From Sandaracinaceae bacterium (GTDB lineage: Bacteria > Myxococcota_A > Polyangia > Polyangiales > Sandaracinaceae), in the NCBI GenBank assembly GCA_040218145.1, contig JAVJQK010000076.1, positions 186,001 to 250,000 of the forward strand: DNA of 64,000 nt, given 5' to 3'. The position numbers and the translations under genes were made by a program. Position 1 is the stretch's first letter. Each line of letters opens with the position of its first letter. The notes beneath the pieces were generated by a model. The model saw nothing but the letters and a program-made list of their open reading frames with translations, was not told the origin of the DNA and ran no database searches. Below are positions 18,916 through 44,082 of this stretch, piece by piece.

Positions 18916-19668
18916 TCAGTTGGGCATCGGCGCGGGCTCGTCGGTCGGCGCGGGCTCGACCACATCCTCCGGGTCCTCCGGGTCGTCCGACTCGTCCTCG
19001 TCTTCGGCGCCGCTCGCCTGCGACTTGTAGCGGAGGAAGCCGAGCGAGCGCAGGAGGCGGCGGTCCGAGATGGCGACCCGGGCGATGGCGCTCCACTCGA
19101 GGTACCAGGTCCACAGCTCCTGCTCGGCCGCCTCGTCCGCCTCGTGGTCTTCGGGCTCCGGCTCCTCGGGCGGCTCGATGCTGCCGACCCTCTCGAGCAG
19201 GCTCCGCGCCTCCGCGACGACCTCCTCGGTCAGGCCGCGGCGGGCGAGCAGCTCACGCGCGCTCTCGCCCTCCTCGCCGAGCCCCCCGTCGGCGGCGGCC
19301 CGGGGCAGCGCCTCGAGCCGCTCGAGGAAGGTCCCGACCGAGATGACGACCGCGGGCCCCTCCGTCCGCGACAGGTTGCGGAAGACGAGGTCCCGGGCCG
19401 CCGGGGCGCGCGCGGTGAGGGTCGCCTCGGCGATGGGGAACCAGCGGTTCTCCCACACGTCGAGCGCGCCCATCAGCGCGGGGTCCAGCGCGCTCGGCTG
19501 GCTGTTGAGTCGGCCGGCCGAGAGGTTGCGGAGCAGCGTCCAGCCGCGCTCGAGCTCCTCCTGGTCGAACCCGTGACGCTGCAGCACGCGGCTGACGCGC
19601 CTGTTCCGAACGCCCAAGAGAAACCGCAGCACGCGATGGGCCTTGCCTCCGATGGTGAGCTTCGCCAT
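18916..19668 (-). CDS. hypothetical helical acidic-tailed protein
   Basis: This 250-aa protein starts at ATG 19668, fixed by a strong ribosome site (GGAGAAGAG) just upstream. The first half is basic and helical (AKLTIGGKAHRVLRFLLG, RVLQRHGF); the middle has a conserved-looking DVWENRWFPIAEATL. The tail has two strongly acidic stretches (EPPEEPEPEDHEADE and EDEDESDDPEDPED). There is no signal peptide. The long mirrored repeat array lies directly upstream and could be its leader or control region. I do not recognise the family. Confidence 0.65.
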   Translation of the reverse strand: MAKLTIGGKAHRVLRFLLGVRNRRVSRVLQRHGFDQEELERGWTLLRNLSAGRLNSQPSALDPALMGALDVWENRWFPIAEATLTARAPAARDLVFRNLSRTEGPAVVISVGTFLERLEALPRAAADGGLGEEGESARELLARRGLTEEVVAEARSLLERVGSIEPPEEPEPEDHEADEAAEQELWTWYLEWSAIARVAISDRRLLRSLGFLRYKSQASGAEDEDESDDPEDPEDVVEPAPTDEPAPMPN

Positions 19669-19792
19669 GTCTCTTCTCCAGTTGACGCGCGGGCGCGCGC
19701 CGGTGTCGCCGCCGGGCCTCTCCCGACGCGATGCAGCTCCCATCGGGCAACACGTCCGTCGGTTGCGTGTCTCTCGCCCCTTTTTCTCCGGC

Positions 19793-20280
19793 GAGACGCG
19801 TCCCCCAGCCTCCGAGATGCCTCCCCCAGCCTCCGAGACGCGCCCCCCAGCCTCCCCGATGCCCTCCCCCAGCCTCCCCGATGACCTCCCCCAGCCCCGG
19901 GGACGCGCCCCCCGGCCCCCGAGACCCGTCCCCCGGCTCCTCGATCCGTTCCCCTGCCTCTCGGGCGCCGAGGGGAGCGGGGGGACCATCGCCGGGAGCC
20001 GGGGGACCATCGCCGGGAGCTGGGGGATCATCGCCGGGAGCCGGGGGGACCATTCCCGGGAGCGGGGGGACCATCGCCCGGAGCTGGGGGACCATTCACG
20101 GGAGCTGGGGGACCATTGCCGGGAGCGGGGGGACCATCGCCGGGAGCGGGGGAGAGTCTCCGCCGAGCTGGGGGGTGCTCCCCGAGCTGGGGCATTGTGT
20201 CACCGAGGTGGCCGGCCTCTCGCCCCAGACGGGGAACCTCTACGCCGAGTTCGGGGACCTCTACGCCGGGCGCCGACCGC
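19793..20280. repeat. mirrored array of about 21-bp tandem repeats
   Basis: The stretch 19669-20316 has no gene I accept. It holds about eight 21-bp C-rich units (19793-19970, core CCCCCAGCCTCCGAGATG) and then about eight G-rich units of 21-22 bp (19979-20155, core GACCATCGCCGGGAGC). The second set is the approximate reverse complement of the first, so the array is a large imperfect palindrome centred near 19975. Degenerate units of about 20-21 bp continue to about 20280. Frames are open through it because the period is a multiple of three, but the predicted peptides are low-complexity and lack a credible start. It may form a long RNA hairpin or be a protein-binding array. Confidence 0.8.
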
Positions 20281-20316: not shown

Positions 20317-20946
20317 TCAGTTCAGCTCGGCGGCTGGAATCAGTGGGGCCTCGGCGCGGCACATGTCGCAATTCTCCTTCGCCACGGACTCCCAGAGCGG
20401 ACGCACCAGCGCGGTCACCCTGGTGACACCCTCCGGCGGCGGCTGTGAGAGTCGGCTCGCAAACGCGAGGACCTCGGCCGGCGGCGGAGCCAGCTCGACC
20501 AACGGGCGGAGTGACTCACCCGTGGTCAGGATGTCCGACACGATCACGCTGGGCGCCCCCTGCACGACCGCGCCCGAGCGCAGCTCCTTCGTCGGGCGGC
20601 GTCGTCGATCCAACGCGACGACGACGAGCGAGTTGGTGGTTGTCTCTGCGACGCGCTGGGCGAGGGCGAACGCGGCAGACTCGGCGCACAGAACATTCAC
20701 ACGCGCTTCGCGCAGTTCCGCCCGCTCGACGAGCAGCTCCACGACGTCTTCCAGAAGCTCCGGCTCCCAGCCGATGGCTCGGAAGCGCAAGAAGTACGAG
20801 CTGTGCGCTCCGCTCTGCAGACCGAAGTGACCGCGGAGCAGAGCTCCAGACTCGGCTACGAGCCGCAGAACGCGTTTGGCGTCCACCCCCGTCTCCACGC
20901 CGAGCAGACGCTCCAACTGCGCCACTTCTCGTATTCGCGTGATCAT
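20317..20946 (-). CDS. orotate-phosphoribosyltransferase-like PRTase
   Basis: This 209-aa protein has the OPRT-type start (GALLRGHFGLQSGAHSSYFLR) and the PRPP-binding loop VIVSDILTTGES at 134-145. A flexible-loop region (RRRRPTKELRSG) and a C-terminal C-x-x-C (CDMC) also recall PyrE-like proteins. It should join PRPP to a base or act on a ribosyl-phosphate. It is probably not the housekeeping pyrE: it is the last gene of an operon with a nitrilase-like and a winged-helix gene, and its ATG overlaps the previous stop (ATGA). The true substrate is unknown. Confidence 0.78.
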   Translation of the reverse strand: MITRIREVAQLERLLGVETGVDAKRVLRLVAESGALLRGHFGLQSGAHSSYFLRFRAIGWEPELLEDVVELLVERAELREARVNVLCAESAAFALAQRVAETTTNSLVVVALDRRRRPTKELRSGAVVQGAPSVIVSDILTTGESLRPLVELAPPPAEVLAFASRLSQPPPEGVTRVTALVRPLWESVAKENCDMCRAEAPLIPAAELN

Positions 20947-21863
20947 ACGGCCACGTCCAGCGGAGTGAGCCCGGGCTCGGGGCTCGGCCCGATCACGAAC
21001 TGTCGCCGCGCCAGGCTTCGAAGCTCCTTCATCGGCGGGTCGTCGCTGTCCTGGAGAACGCAGCGCTCATCATCGTAGATGATCGTGAGCACGGCCTCTT
21101 GGCGAGCGCGCTCGAGCAGCAGGTTCGCGTCCAGGTCTTTGGACGGTCCCTCCGTGACCTGGCATGAGAAGACGCCCAGCTTCTGGAAGAGCGGAACCAC
21201 CGCGCCCCAGGAGTTGGGGTCGGAGGTTCGAATGCAGAGGAGCCTGGTCTGCTCTGCTATCTCTGCGAGCGGCGAGGGCAAGACTCCGCTGCCGTAGATC
21301 TGCCACAGCATGTTCGAGAGCTCGGAGGGCGGAGGCGGGGGGCCCGAGCGGCGCGCGAGCGATGTTCCCATCTGCTTGAGGACGCGCTCGCCCCGCAGGG
21401 TCAGCCGGTGTGGTCGACTTCGACCGTCACCGCCCGGGGGCTGGTGCACCTCCAGCAATCCCACTCCGCGAATGGCGGAGAGAACCCGAGACACGTGCCC
21501 GGCGTCCTTCCCGAGCTTCTCCGCCAGCGCCGCGGGGCGGCACACGCCCCCGTCGACGAGCGACAACACTTCTCGCCATTCGGAGCGCTCGGCCACGGCC
21601 TCCACGATCTCGCGATCGGTCTCCGTGGCCTCCCGATGGACTTCGCTCGCCGCCAGCACGTCGAGGAGAGCGCGCGCGTACCCATCGGCGTACGGCTCGC
21701 GATCCGTCGAGGTCCGCGCGAGCGCGGCGCGGAGCCGACGGAGCTCGTCTCGCGACTCGGCGTGGACGAGCTGCCCTCCCACGAACGTGCCCGCGCGGGC
21801 GAGCTCCCGACGCGCCAGCCCGCTTCGCTCCAGGCGCGCGATCAACCGGTCGACGTCGTTCAT
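20943..21863 (-). CDS. winged-helix (MarR/ArsR-like) protein with unknown C-terminal domain
   Basis: This is a 306-aa protein. Residues 1-80 are helical and charged. Residues 85-165 form a winged helix-turn-helix (RPAALAEKLGKDAGHVSRVL, then LEV..SRPHRLTLRGERVL). The last 120 residues form an alpha/beta domain (EQTRLLCIRTSDPNSWGAVVPLF, VLTIIYDDER) of no family I recognise, possibly a ligand sensor. A good ribosome site (GGGAG) precedes ATG 21863. It sits between the nitrilase-like gene (66 bp upstream) and the PRTase gene (four-base overlap) and probably regulates or works with them. Confidence 0.72.
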   Translation of the reverse strand: MNDVDRLIARLERSGLARRELARAGTFVGGQLVHAESRDELRRLRAALARTSTDREPYADGYARALLDVLAASEVHREATETDREIVEAVAERSEWREVLSLVDGGVCRPAALAEKLGKDAGHVSRVLSAIRGVGLLEVHQPPGGDGRSRPHRLTLRGERVLKQMGTSLARRSGPPPPPSELSNMLWQIYGSGVLPSPLAEIAEQTRLLCIRTSDPNSWGAVVPLFQKLGVFSCQVTEGPSKDLDANLLLERARQEAVLTIIYDDERCVLQDSDDPPMKELRSLARRQFVIGPSPEPGLTPLDVAV

Positions 21864-21929
21864 GTCACTCCCTTGGGGCCACCCATACGGGTCTTGCCGA
21901 CCTGATCATGGGTGTGGATCAACTATTCG

Positions 21930-23282
21930 TCAAGTAAACCCCGTTGAATCTCCGGCAAGCGTGAAGACTTCGAGTCCGCTCCCTTTCTCGGGGAAGCTCC
22001 GGAGCTCGTAGGGACGAGCTTCCAGCGGCCTGGCGAGGATGGCGGCGGCCGGCTCGGGGTCGGCGTCCGCGGTCCCCCACTGATTGGCGACCAGCACGAT
22101 CGCCTGGGCGTCGCCACACAAGGCGACGGCCTTGTCTCGGAACAGACCAGTCTTCCGGGAGAGCGCTGGCACCAGCACCATGCGCACCTGGAGCGCTGTG
22201 AGCACCCGAACCGTCTCCGGTTCGAGGAGGTCCTTGCAGATGAGGGTGGTGAACGACCAATCGCCGCTCAGATGAAGCGTGATCCGCCGTGGCGCGGCGC
22301 GAATCCCTTCGCGGTAGACGGTGCTGGAGTCAGCCTTCAGCCGCATCTCGACCGGGTTGTATTTCCAGTGCTCGACCCGTCCTCCGCCAGCCAGGAAGGT
22401 GCTACACACGTTGCGCCGGCCGTCCTTTCCGTCGACGTGCACGCTGCCGCAGACGAGCACGGAGCACGAACGTCGCCTTTCGCGGTACCACTGCTCGACC
22501 GCGTCGACCGACTCCCCATCGAGACACAGCTCCGGGAGCACGACGATGCGAGCGCCGGCTTCCTCGGCCTTCTCGAGCAGGCCGAGTGTGAGCGCGCGCT
22601 TCGCCTCCGGGTCGCGCGGTCTCACCCCGAAGAAGCTCGGGAGCTGGCCCTCGACACAGTCCCACTCCAAGTCATCGATGCTGCCCGTCACGATCACGGC
22701 CAGCCGCGACTCGGGCTCCAGGTCTGCCAGGACGTCGTTGTGGCTCGCGTCGACGACGACCGAGTACCCTCCCATGAGCGGGGGGAGCAGTCGGAGCCGC
22801 CGGAGTTCTTCGAGCATGGGCCCGCAGCTCTCCCTGCGACTCACCAGAGGCGCGCGAAGGAGGGCCTTGAGCGGCGGCTGCAGGACGGGGATGGGATCGC
22901 CATCTCCAAGAGGCCTCGGCTCACGGTCTCGAAACTGCAACGCGAACTGATGTCCGTGTACGTCGTCGAGTGCTTCGGCGACGGCCCGAGCAGCCAGAGG
23001 AAGCGCGAAAGAAGGCGTCTTCGTCTTCCGTTCGATGTCTGCCTCGAGACACTTCAGCAAAGCGATCAGTTCCTGCAACCGGTCCTTCTCGAAGACATCC
23101 AGTTGGCTTGCTCGAAAGAAGTCCCGGGCCTGGTCGCGAGCCTCTCCGAGCGCGACGAACGCCGCGTCGTCTTCGAGTCCATGGAGCAGGGCATCGACCC
23201 GACTGCGACAGACGCGAAGCAGTATCGCGGCCAAGTCGACGAGCTCGAGCTCGGTGGACTCCGCTAGCTCTTCGTACGGCAC
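21930..23282 (-). CDS. nitrilase-superfamily amidohydrolase with long N-terminal domain
   Basis: This 450-aa protein starts at GTG 23282, where GGAGG lies about ten bases upstream; an in-frame TTG at 23318 is an alternative. The C-terminal 260 residues are a carbon-nitrogen hydrolase domain with the complete catalytic triad: Glu251 in VVLPEL, Lys307 in HWKYNP and Cys349 in LICKDLL. The first 190 residues are a helical domain not found in ordinary nitrilases. It should hydrolyse an amide or similar C-N bond in the cytoplasm. It is the first gene of a three-gene operon with a winged-helix and a PRTase-like gene. The substrate is unknown. Confidence 0.78.
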   Translation of the reverse strand: MPYEELAESTELELVDLAAILLRVCRSRVDALLHGLEDDAAFVALGEARDQARDFFRASQLDVFEKDRLQELIALLKCLEADIERKTKTPSFALPLAARAVAEALDDVHGHQFALQFRDREPRPLGDGDPIPVLQPPLKALLRAPLVSRRESCGPMLEELRRLRLLPPLMGGYSVVVDASHNDVLADLEPESRLAVIVTGSIDDLEWDCVEGQLPSFFGVRPRDPEAKRALTLGLLEKAEEAGARIVVLPELCLDGESVDAVEQWYRERRRSCSVLVCGSVHVDGKDGRRNVCSTFLAGGGRVEHWKYNPVEMRLKADSSTVYREGIRAAPRRITLHLSGDWSFTTLICKDLLEPETVRVLTALQVRMVLVPALSRKTGLFRDKAVALCGDAQAIVLVANQWGTADADPEPAAAILARPLEARPYELRSFPEKGSGLEVFTLAGDSTGFT

Positions 23283-42183: not shown

Positions 42184-44082
42184 ATGTTTCTGCGAGCCCA
42201 ACCTGCCCACGCGCGCTCTTCTCAGCGCTCCACCCGCCGCGCGGCCGCGGGACTCCTCCTGCTCGGCGCGACGCTCGCGTCGTGTGGATCCGACGCTTCG
42301 GTTCAGGACGGAGGCGCCGTCGACGGTTCGATCCGCGATGGCGCCCCGCGCGACGGAGCGCCGCCGAACACCAGCGACCCGAGCTGCGGGGACGGGGTGC
42401 GCGTACCGCCCGAGCTCTGCGATCCCGGGGTCGCGGAGCCGAACGCGGGCGCGTGCCCCACTCACTGTGATGACGGCATCGCGTGCACGCGCGACGAGCT
42501 CGTCGGTTCGGCTTGCGCCGCGCGCTGCGAGTTCACCCCCATCGACGCCTGCATGGGCGGGGACGGCTGCTGCCCCTCGGGCTGTGATGAGACCACCGAC
42601 TCCGACTGCTCGCCCACCTGCGGCGACGGCGTCGTCGACCCCCCCGAGACCTGCGACACGGCGCTGCCCGCCGGACACCCCGACGCGTGCCCCACCGCAT
42701 GCGACGACAGCGTCGCGTGCACCATGAACACCCTCGTCGGCTCCGGCTGCTCCGCCGCATGCAGCTTCACCGACATCTCCACATGCCGCGACGGCGACGG
42801 CTGCTGCCCCTCCGCCTGCGACGCCACCACCGACTCCGACTGCTCGCCCACCTGCGGCAACGGCGTCGTAGAGCCCCCCGAGACCTGCGATACCACCATC
42901 CCAACCGGCGAACCCGGCGCCTGCCCCGCTTCGTGCGACGACGCCGTCGCGTGCACCCAGGACGCCCTCGTCGGCTCCGGCTGCTCCGCCGCATGCAGCT
43001 TCACCCCGATCAGCGCGTGCCGAGACGGCGACGGCTGCTGCCCCTCCGGTTGCAGCAGCGTGTTCGACGACGACTGCGTCTGCGTGCCGGACACCTGCGC
43101 TGCGGACCAGCTGTGCGGGACGATGCCGGACGGCTGCGGGACGACCCTCACCTGCGGGCCGACGTGCGGCGAGTGGGATCCGGTCGCGAGCCTGCCGGAC
43201 GTGGTCACCTTCGCGGGCGCCCACGCGGGCCCCGGTCGAGCCGTGCTGTTCGGAGACGACTCCGTCACCAACGCTGCGGAGACGTGGGAGTACGACGCGG
43301 CCACCGACGCGTGGTCCCAGTACGCGCCGACGCCCCAGCCGGATCCCGGGAGCACAACGCCGCAGATGGCCTACGCCGGCGGCGGGATCGCGGTGCTGCA
43401 CGACCGCCACGCGGGGACCTGGGAGTACGACACCGCCACCCACACGTGGACCGAGTATCCGATGGCCGGGGGACCGTCGCGGGCACGCCACGCGCTGAGC
43501 TACGCCGGCCCGGGCCGCGTGCTCCTGTTCGGCGGGCTGCTGGCGAGCAGCGGCGGGGGCGTCGCCGATGGCACGTACCTCTACTCTACGACGACACACA
43601 CCTGGACGCTCCTCTCCACCCCCGGCGTCCACCCGAGCGCCCGGTCCCGTCATCGCATGGCGTGGCTCGGTGGGGGGCGCGTGATCCTCGCAGGGGGGGA
43701 CGTCGCCGACGCGTGGGTGTTCGACACGGCCACCGCCTCGTGGAGCACGATCACCACGCCCCCGACGACCCTCGAGGACTCCATGATGGCGCACCTCACG
43801 ATGGACCGGGTCCTGTTGTATGGCGGTCACAACGGGATGACGCCGGGGAGGAGCCGACGCTTCTACGAGTACGACGGCGGCACCGACACCTGGATCGACC
43901 GCACGGGCACCCCCGTCGATCCTTCGAGCCTCTCGGACGCCGCGATGGCGCACCTGGGACCGGGGCGCGTGCTGATGCAGGGAGGCCTCCACTGGACCGG
44001 AGCCACCTTCCGGTGGCGCGAGCGCGCGTTCGTCTTCTACGACGGAGCCGGGACGGCCACGAGCACCGACTTCGGACCGTGA
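42184..44082 (+). CDS. Cys-rich and kelch-like repeat surface lipoprotein
   Basis: This 632-aa protein has a signal peptide with lipobox LASC, an Asp/Gly linker, then three cysteine-rich repeats of about 80 residues (each with CGDGV..PPE.CD, CDD.IACT or like, and DGCCPSGCD). The repeats resemble metazoan-like disulfide modules seen in myxobacterial surface proteins. The C-terminal half carries five or six kelch-type repeats (GRVLLFGG, GRVILAGGD, DRVLLYGGH with following TWEYD, WVFD, FYEYD), forming a beta-propeller. It is probably an adhesin or binding protein. ATG 42184 follows GAGAGG. Confidence 0.85.
   Translation: MFLRAQPAHARSSQRSTRRAAAGLLLLGATLASCGSDASVQDGGAVDGSIRDGAPRDGAPPNTSDPSCGDGVRVPPELCDPGVAEPNAGACPTHCDDGIACTRDELVGSACAARCEFTPIDACMGGDGCCPSGCDETTDSDCSPTCGDGVVDPPETCDTALPAGHPDACPTACDDSVACTMNTLVGSGCSAACSFTDISTCRDGDGCCPSACDATTDSDCSPTCGNGVVEPPETCDTTIPTGEPGACPASCDDAVACTQDALVGSGCSAACSFTPISACRDGDGCCPSGCSSVFDDDCVCVPDTCAADQLCGTMPDGCGTTLTCGPTCGEWDPVASLPDVVTFAGAHAGPGRAVLFGDDSVTNAAETWEYDAATDAWSQYAPTPQPDPGSTTPQMAYAGGGIAVLHDRHAGTWEYDTATHTWTEYPMAGGPSRARHALSYAGPGRVLLFGGLLASSGGGVADGTYLYSTTTHTWTLLSTPGVHPSARSRHRMAWLGGGRVILAGGDVADAWVFDTATASWSTITTPPTTLEDSMMAHLTMDRVLLYGGHNGMTPGRSRRFYEYDGGTDTWIDRTGTPVDPSSLSDAAMAHLGPGRVLMQGGLHWTGATFRWRERAFVFYDGAGTATSTDFGP

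Follow-up and report, generated by a model that had tools for sequence, protein, structure and literature searches.

The window that we analysed, a stretch of 64,000 nucleotides from contig C76 of an 11-Mb Sandaracinaceae genome in 148 contigs, carries three adjacent genes on its minus strand. In order of transcription they encode a nitrilase-superfamily C–N hydrolase, a MarR-like winged-helix regulator and a protein with the fold of orotate PRTases (Table 1). The three open reading frames lie where a preliminary description of this DNA had placed them, and both of the spacings that it gave were found, a 66-bp gap between the nitrilase and winged-helix genes and a 4-base ATGA overlap between the winged-helix and PRTase genes. 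The repeat array that it had seen beside the genes is also present and ends about 140 bp from the stop codon of the PRTase gene. As it had suggested, the trio is less GC-rich than its surroundings. No other 3-kb stretch of the window has a GC content as low as its 0.671; 3-kb segments average 0.720 (sd 0.015), and all of them (244/244) lie above the trio. Third-position GC is 0.79–0.84 in the trio and 0.93–0.985 in the three neighbouring genes that were measured.

Table 1. Features of the three-gene locus, in window coordinates.
Feature	Position	Strand	Remarks
Nitrilase-superfamily C–N hydrolase	21930-23282	minus	450 aa from GTG 23282
MarR-like winged-helix regulator	20943-21863	minus	306 aa
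OPRTase-derived PRTase-fold protein	20317-20946	minus	209 aa
Predicted sigma70-type promoter TTGACG-17-CATGAT	21933-21905	minus	nitrilase/winged-helix gap
Candidate regulator site TACTTGACGANNNNTTGA	21919-21936	minus	overlaps -35 box
21-bp repeat array, GGGAGCTGGGGGACCATCGCC-like	19973-20175		downstream side of the trio
Junction with sister genome G179	23447		rightward match compared as far as 28216

The best start of the nitrilase gene is the GTG, which has a good ribosome-binding site (GGAGGGGG) just 5′ of it; the alternative start, TTG 23318, lacks such a site. Read from the GTG, the protein consists of a helical N-terminal domain with small strands (residues 1 to about 185) and a nitrilase domain (residues 186–445), and the residue numbering agrees with that of the Glu251-Lys307-Cys349 triad described before. 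This triad is complete and kept in 20 of 20 family members. Another glutamate, Glu325, is equally invariant (20/20) and fits a catalytic tetrad. The predicted model has a mean pLDDT of 91.5, and its residues 186–445 match Nit2 and amidases with Z-scores of 19–21 and an rmsd of about 3 Å over 215–230 residues. Carbamoylases and the glutaminase domains of NAD synthetases match in the same Z range, and the fold matches include 5ny7, a nitrilase-family amidase with bound nicotinamide. Against PF00795 the protein reaches 14.3–14.4 bits, under the gathering score of 23.2 bits; by its modelled fold and its triad it is a divergent member of the superfamily that falls below the curated sequence cut-off. 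The N-terminal domain had been called new; it is not unique to this protein, as it is kept throughout the family and recurs in actinobacterial proteins.

Judged by its sequence, the PRTase descends from orotate PRTases. Its best relatives are TIGR01367 and 4paw, and it retains the GHF.L..G.H segment, the TTG phosphate loop and a CxxC...P..EL(N) tail; with Thermus-type PyrE (TIGR01367, TIGR00336) it shares the fold, GHF.L.SG.H, the TTG loop and a CxxC near the C-terminus. It differs from that type in the active site and scores below the cut-offs, with 46.5 bits against TIGR01367 (cut-off 150, precisely 150.25) and 39.8 bits against TIGR00336 (106.8). None of the nine trio PRTases has the first PRPP-binding acid, which is replaced by N, S or L and is present as E or D in 73 of 74 PyrEs, and in comparison with these 74 proteins the catalytic RRGF loop has become D..RRP. 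The GG pyrophosphate loop has changed from PAxGG to PESAG, while the second Asp of the PRPP motif is kept in 9/9. A separate, true pyrE is located on contig C21 (134 bits, over the curated cut-off). Because the first PRPP acid, the RRGF loop and the GG loop are changed and a true pyrE lies elsewhere, the trio PRTase is unlikely to make OMP. Loss of one PRPP acid need not end PRTase catalysis. That the set does not serve pyrimidine synthesis, as proposed earlier, is borne out by the separate pyrE and the altered active site, which rule out this role. Since the TTG phosphate loop is kept, the protein probably binds a phosphoribosyl-type ligand.

The regulator comprises a helical N-terminal domain (residues 1 to about 92), a MarR-like winged helix (about 82–175) and a C-terminal domain (about 176–306) that is found in trio members only. 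PF12802 matches eight of the nine trio regulators (best 8e-11), and the regulator of the window scores 22.5 bits, below the 27-bit cut-off. Fold matches of the winged helix reach Z-scores of 12–13 across 80–95 residues. The C-terminal domain is poorly modelled (pLDDT 30–80), and its matches to TrmBL2, which are weak and have poor TM-scores, were set aside. In PF24409 (wHTH-PRTase_assc), too, a winged helix is linked with a PRTase; with 16.2 bits and a cut-off of 27 bits, the trio regulator is not a member.

A second complete trio with the same gene order lies on contig C63 of the source genome. The two trios share 30% identity in the nitrilase, 24% in the regulator and 33% in the PRTase, no more than with other genera, which excludes a recent local duplication. 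Our profile searches over Myxococcota, in which a clear gap separates full-length family members from general nitrilases, brought the count to nine trios, spread over eight genomes. The source genome has two of them, six come from a single family within its class (records of the matching contigs name Myxococcales or Kofleriaceae), and the ninth belongs to a different class. A tenth, partial trio was found on contig L098. Ten further loci are duos of the nitrilase and a shorter regulator, without a PRTase. Across the 19 loci formed by the nine trios and ten duos, the C-terminal domain of the regulator and the PRTase co-occur without exception, and every member found of the PRTase subfamily adjoins the winged-helix gene and, on all contigs that extend far enough, the nitrilase gene. 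The preliminary description had left room for the genes being dispersed in other genomes; the gene-neighbourhood check found them together, and the trio is a conserved module. Protein identities across trios are correlated at 0.98–0.99 among the three proteins, a value that shared ancestry alone would also give. The parts belong to common superfamilies, so that they could in principle be chance neighbours with no joint function; against this, the gene order is the same in all nine trios, which come from eight genomes and two classes, and their subfamilies are specific to the set, so that coincidence is exceedingly improbable.

The arrangement varies at several loci. In L086 and L088 the regulator gene is 2.5–3.9 kb away from the nitrilase gene with other genes in between, and in L051 the nitrilase gene is next to one for a 540-aa HTH protein. 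A 5′-nucleotidase gene, whose product has a weak NadN-like match in its C-terminal domain, lies just upstream of most duos in one genus. In a Kofleriaceae-type genus the genes flanking the loci are constant from genome to genome, and the module is therefore resident there. On actinobacterial plasmids (Rhodococcus, Mycolicibacterium, Streptomyces) we found the same nitrilase and N-terminal domain, about 30% identical over residues 118–462 of the TTG-start protein, but fused to a C-terminal NUDIX domain and, within the stretches examined, with no regulator/PRTase pair beside it. No trio outside Myxococcota was found in plasmids, in phages or in a non-exhaustive pattern scan of genome contigs; a first scan of genome contigs with a single nitrilase query gave no match, and an alignment of six PRTases was too diverse to yield a search pattern.

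Candidate regulatory sites were found directly upstream of the regulator genes. In the duos this position is occupied by a conserved 20-bp palindrome, CAACNNTTGCGCAANNGTTG, which is present in exactly one copy in each of seven genomes of 8–11 Mb from two genera, always upstream of the duo regulator and with zero control hits. The exact palindrome is absent from the source genome (G000). Four trio genomes each contain one exact site TTGACGGTAACGTAAA within the corresponding nitrilase/regulator gap, and one of the four has an additional site elsewhere with one mismatch. In the window and on C63, the motif TACTTGACGANNNNTTGA occurs at the same position of the gap; in both trios it partly overlaps the stop codon of the nitrilase gene, so that the match may be partly coding, and the site in the window is not clearly palindromic. 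These patterns are read most simply if the regulator is dedicated to its own control and has a single target site. The candidate site is placed to control the regulator gene (and the PRTase gene), and not obviously the nitrilase gene.

The same gap contains a predicted sigma70-type promoter, the sole such site in 3.4 kb, where 0.1 would be expected; equally good sites appeared in 8 of 500 shuffles. It is also predicted in the C63 paralogue and in L093, and consensus scans in the gaps of other loci were mostly no better than shuffles. This promoter could drive the winged-helix and PRTase genes without the nitrilase gene. Of the operon proposed in the preliminary description, the adjacency of the genes therefore stands, while a single transcript from one upstream promoter is too simple and is weakened by the promoter predicted in the gap.

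Both trios are absent from the corresponding sites of a sister genome, G179, which is 97–99% identical and listed as the same species; this assembly is 84% complete, and its second (C63) site is spanned by one contig. At the locus in the window, the two genomes share 98% identity on the right flank, beginning at the junction (Table 1), and to the left of it the trio is replaced by a gene for a Cys-rich lipoprotein and a 21-bp-type GAGCTGGGGG array. In two other genera a MATE gene lies beside a hydrolase gene, or beside genes beyond it, without the trio. The C63 trio is part of a 4.7-kb segment that is missing from G179 between flanks of 97–99% identity. This segment lies between imperfect direct repeats of about 40 bp that encode a PRTase 3′ end, and the G179 junction is a clean empty site that looks like a hybrid of both repeats, which fits gain or loss of the C63 trio by recombination between them. 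The recent arrival that had been considered possible is thus backed, at least as a recent or labile presence, by the low GC content and the G179 sites without the trio, and the trio is probably a horizontally acquired, accessory module. Because it recurs in distant myxobacteria yet a nearly identical genome lacks it at both of its sites, its role, on nucleotides or in defence, is probably optional rather than part of basic metabolism.

We favour, with a probability of about one half, the reading that the trio is a horizontally acquired, self-regulated enzyme module made up of an active amidase, an autoregulator and a repurposed, non-OMP sensing PRTase. The nitrilase would be an active Glu-Lys-Cys amidase or C–N hydrolase, and the winged-helix protein would be a dedicated autoregulator, acting at a single site in the gap that precedes its own gene. 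The repurposed PRTase may sense a phosphoribosyl-type ligand and pass the signal to the C-terminal domain of the regulator, in the manner of PurR or GfcR, although here the two would be separate chains. As the substrate of the nitrilase we favour a nucleotide-linked amide, which is suggested because of the recurring context of a PRTase, a NUDIX fusion and, in most duos of one genus, an upstream 5′-nucleotidase; nicotinamide or NAD+ would be one candidate among others. Points against this reading are the lack of the exact palindrome in G000, the partly coding candidate site in the window, the spacing in L086 and L088, the poor model of the C-terminal domain and the fact that a PRTase lacking one PRPP acid may still be catalytic. 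The 5′-nucleotidase and the NUDIX fusion would also suit a small metabolic pathway, in which the amidase, with its intact catalytic residues, and an active PRTase with a changed specificity would serve to salvage or break down a heterocycle or a nucleotide amide under an ordinary local repressor. Amidases and PRTases act on related heterocycles, and the nicotinamide-bound 5ny7 would be in line with this. However, the PRTase is changed at the PRPP acid, the catalytic loop and the pyrophosphate loop, its presence tracks the C-terminal domain of the regulator and not the nitrilase, which does without it in ten duos, and neither a transporter nor any other pathway gene was consistently linked, so that we regard such a pathway as distinctly unlikely.

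Another function to be weighed is anti-phage defence or abortive infection, in which a toxic nitrilase would destroy or convert an essential amide metabolite such as NAD+ and would be restrained by the regulator and the PRTase until a phage changes the nucleotide pool. Nearly all of the PADLOC profiles that the nitrilase matches are those of DRT nitrilases (RT-UG5, RT-associated) and CARF-nitrilase, and 9yfd, the nitrilase of DRT1, is among the PDB matches of the nitrilase profile. In DRT1 the nitrilase domain acts as a defence effector, and the authors leave open what it cuts (PMC13275509). The patchy, labile presence of the module and its low GC content would also be expected of a defence locus, and CapW and BrxR are examples of defence operons being controlled by a local winged-helix regulator (PMC9122588, PMC9122601). 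CapW and BrxR resemble the trio in that a local winged-helix regulator is encoded with the module; the trio regulator differs in being MarR-like with another C-terminal domain instead of WYL and in having its candidate operator upstream of the regulator gene, not of the nitrilase gene. On the other hand, the PADLOC matches, with E-values of 1e-6 to 1e-4, are weak, and the nitrilase is matched by ordinary amidases as well. Among ten flanking proteins at four trio loci there was no specific defence profile, with one Ser/Thr kinase matching kinase profiles generically, the phage search found no homologue, and the constant neighbours in the Kofleriaceae-type genus are those of a resident gene. Defence in this form is accordingly a doubtful explanation.

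DRT1/UG5 RT-nitrilases and CARF-nitrilases share with the trio a nitrilase domain of weak similarity whose catalytic residues are intact and which follows a different N-terminal part. The RT-nitrilase profile is matched at positions 672–833 of 907 by nitrilase residues 234–400, and PDLC01989 (CARF-nitrilase, E 4e-5) at positions 203–377 of 457, which leaves out the first 200. Unlike these systems, the trio nitrilase has no RT or CARF part in the matched stretches, a Pfam search found no RT domain in the protein, and it is paired with a winged helix and a PRTase. Membership in DRT is ruled out, as the nitrilase part alone matches. A further account, which we consider improbable, is a hitherto undescribed module for immunity or stress. 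In it, the PRTase sensor and the winged helix would form a two-protein switch that watches the nucleotide pool and unleashes the nitrilase as an effector to deamidate an essential nucleotide, e.g. NAD+.

The gene control proposed in our favoured reading has parallels in known PRTase-fold proteins. PurR is a regulator of this fold in Bacillus. GfcR, a PyrE-like gene activator of Haloarchaea, is encoded by pyrE1 (PMC11519228). In both, a PRTase-fold protein takes part in gene control; the trio differs from them in carrying the winged helix and the PRTase on separate proteins, in the MarR-like type of the winged helix and in the attached nitrilase. With 19.2 bits where 115 are needed, the trio PRTase does not belong to GfcR/PRK02277.

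Overall, the trio is a real, undescribed gene set, for which a text search found no paper and the libraries searched contain no model, though the set occurs in two Myxococcota classes and actinobacterial plasmids carry its nitrilase too. Should the PRTase prove to be a separate-chain ligand sensor, it would be a case, outside Archaea, of an orotate PRTase that has become the sensor part of a transcription switch. Were the nitrilase an effector, the module would represent a defence system whose nitrilase works with neither a reverse transcriptase nor a CARF domain, and it could help to answer the question, left open for DRT1, of what defence nitrilases cut.

Members of the nitrilase family of the trio also occur with other partners. 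On plasmids of Streptomyces, Rhodococcus and Mycolicibacterium, the enzyme carries a fused C-terminal NUDIX domain, and no regulator/PRTase pair was found next to the fusion genes at L043, L044 and L045. In duo loci of one genus, where the family nitrilase is paired with a shorter winged-helix regulator, a 5′-nucleotidase gene directly adjoins the nitrilase on its upstream side. Two duos, which otherwise resemble the remaining ones, have 2 or 3 genes separating the nitrilase from the regulator; strict co-transcription of these two is therefore not needed. A third arrangement places the nitrilase ahead of a 540-aa protein; this protein has an HTH around residue 110, and the long rest of it is unrecognised.

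Coordinates of compared loci and window features
Feature	Locus	Position
Nitrilase-NUDIX fusion	L043	7539-9719
Nitrilase-NUDIX fusion	L044	7590-9704
Nitrilase-NUDIX fusion	L045	7593-9716
UshA/NadN-like 5′-nucleotidase, duo locus	L047	7814-9613
UshA/NadN-like 5′-nucleotidase, duo locus	L048	2434-4185
UshA/NadN-like 5′-nucleotidase, duo locus	L049	7674-9443
UshA/NadN-like 5′-nucleotidase, duo locus	L090	7049-8800
Interrupted duo	L086	3696-9669
Interrupted duo	L088	4913-9415
Nitrilase, 540-aa protein	L051	6118-9213
371-aa ORF	window	18916-20031
234-bp tandem repeat	window	42558-43048
Cys-rich lipoprotein gene, array	L186 (G179:C1)	1-1236

Within the window, the called N-terminal part of a 371-aa ORF without Pfam match runs through the repeat array, and its real start probably lies further inside. 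Cys codons are abundant in a tandem repeat elsewhere (2 copies, 84% matches). In the sister genome G179, the site matching the window's insertion site holds a gene for a 293-aa Cys-rich lipoprotein. Because a 21-bp-type GAGCTGGGGG array borders this gene as well, our comparison suggests that cargo genes are exchanged at sites marked by such arrays.
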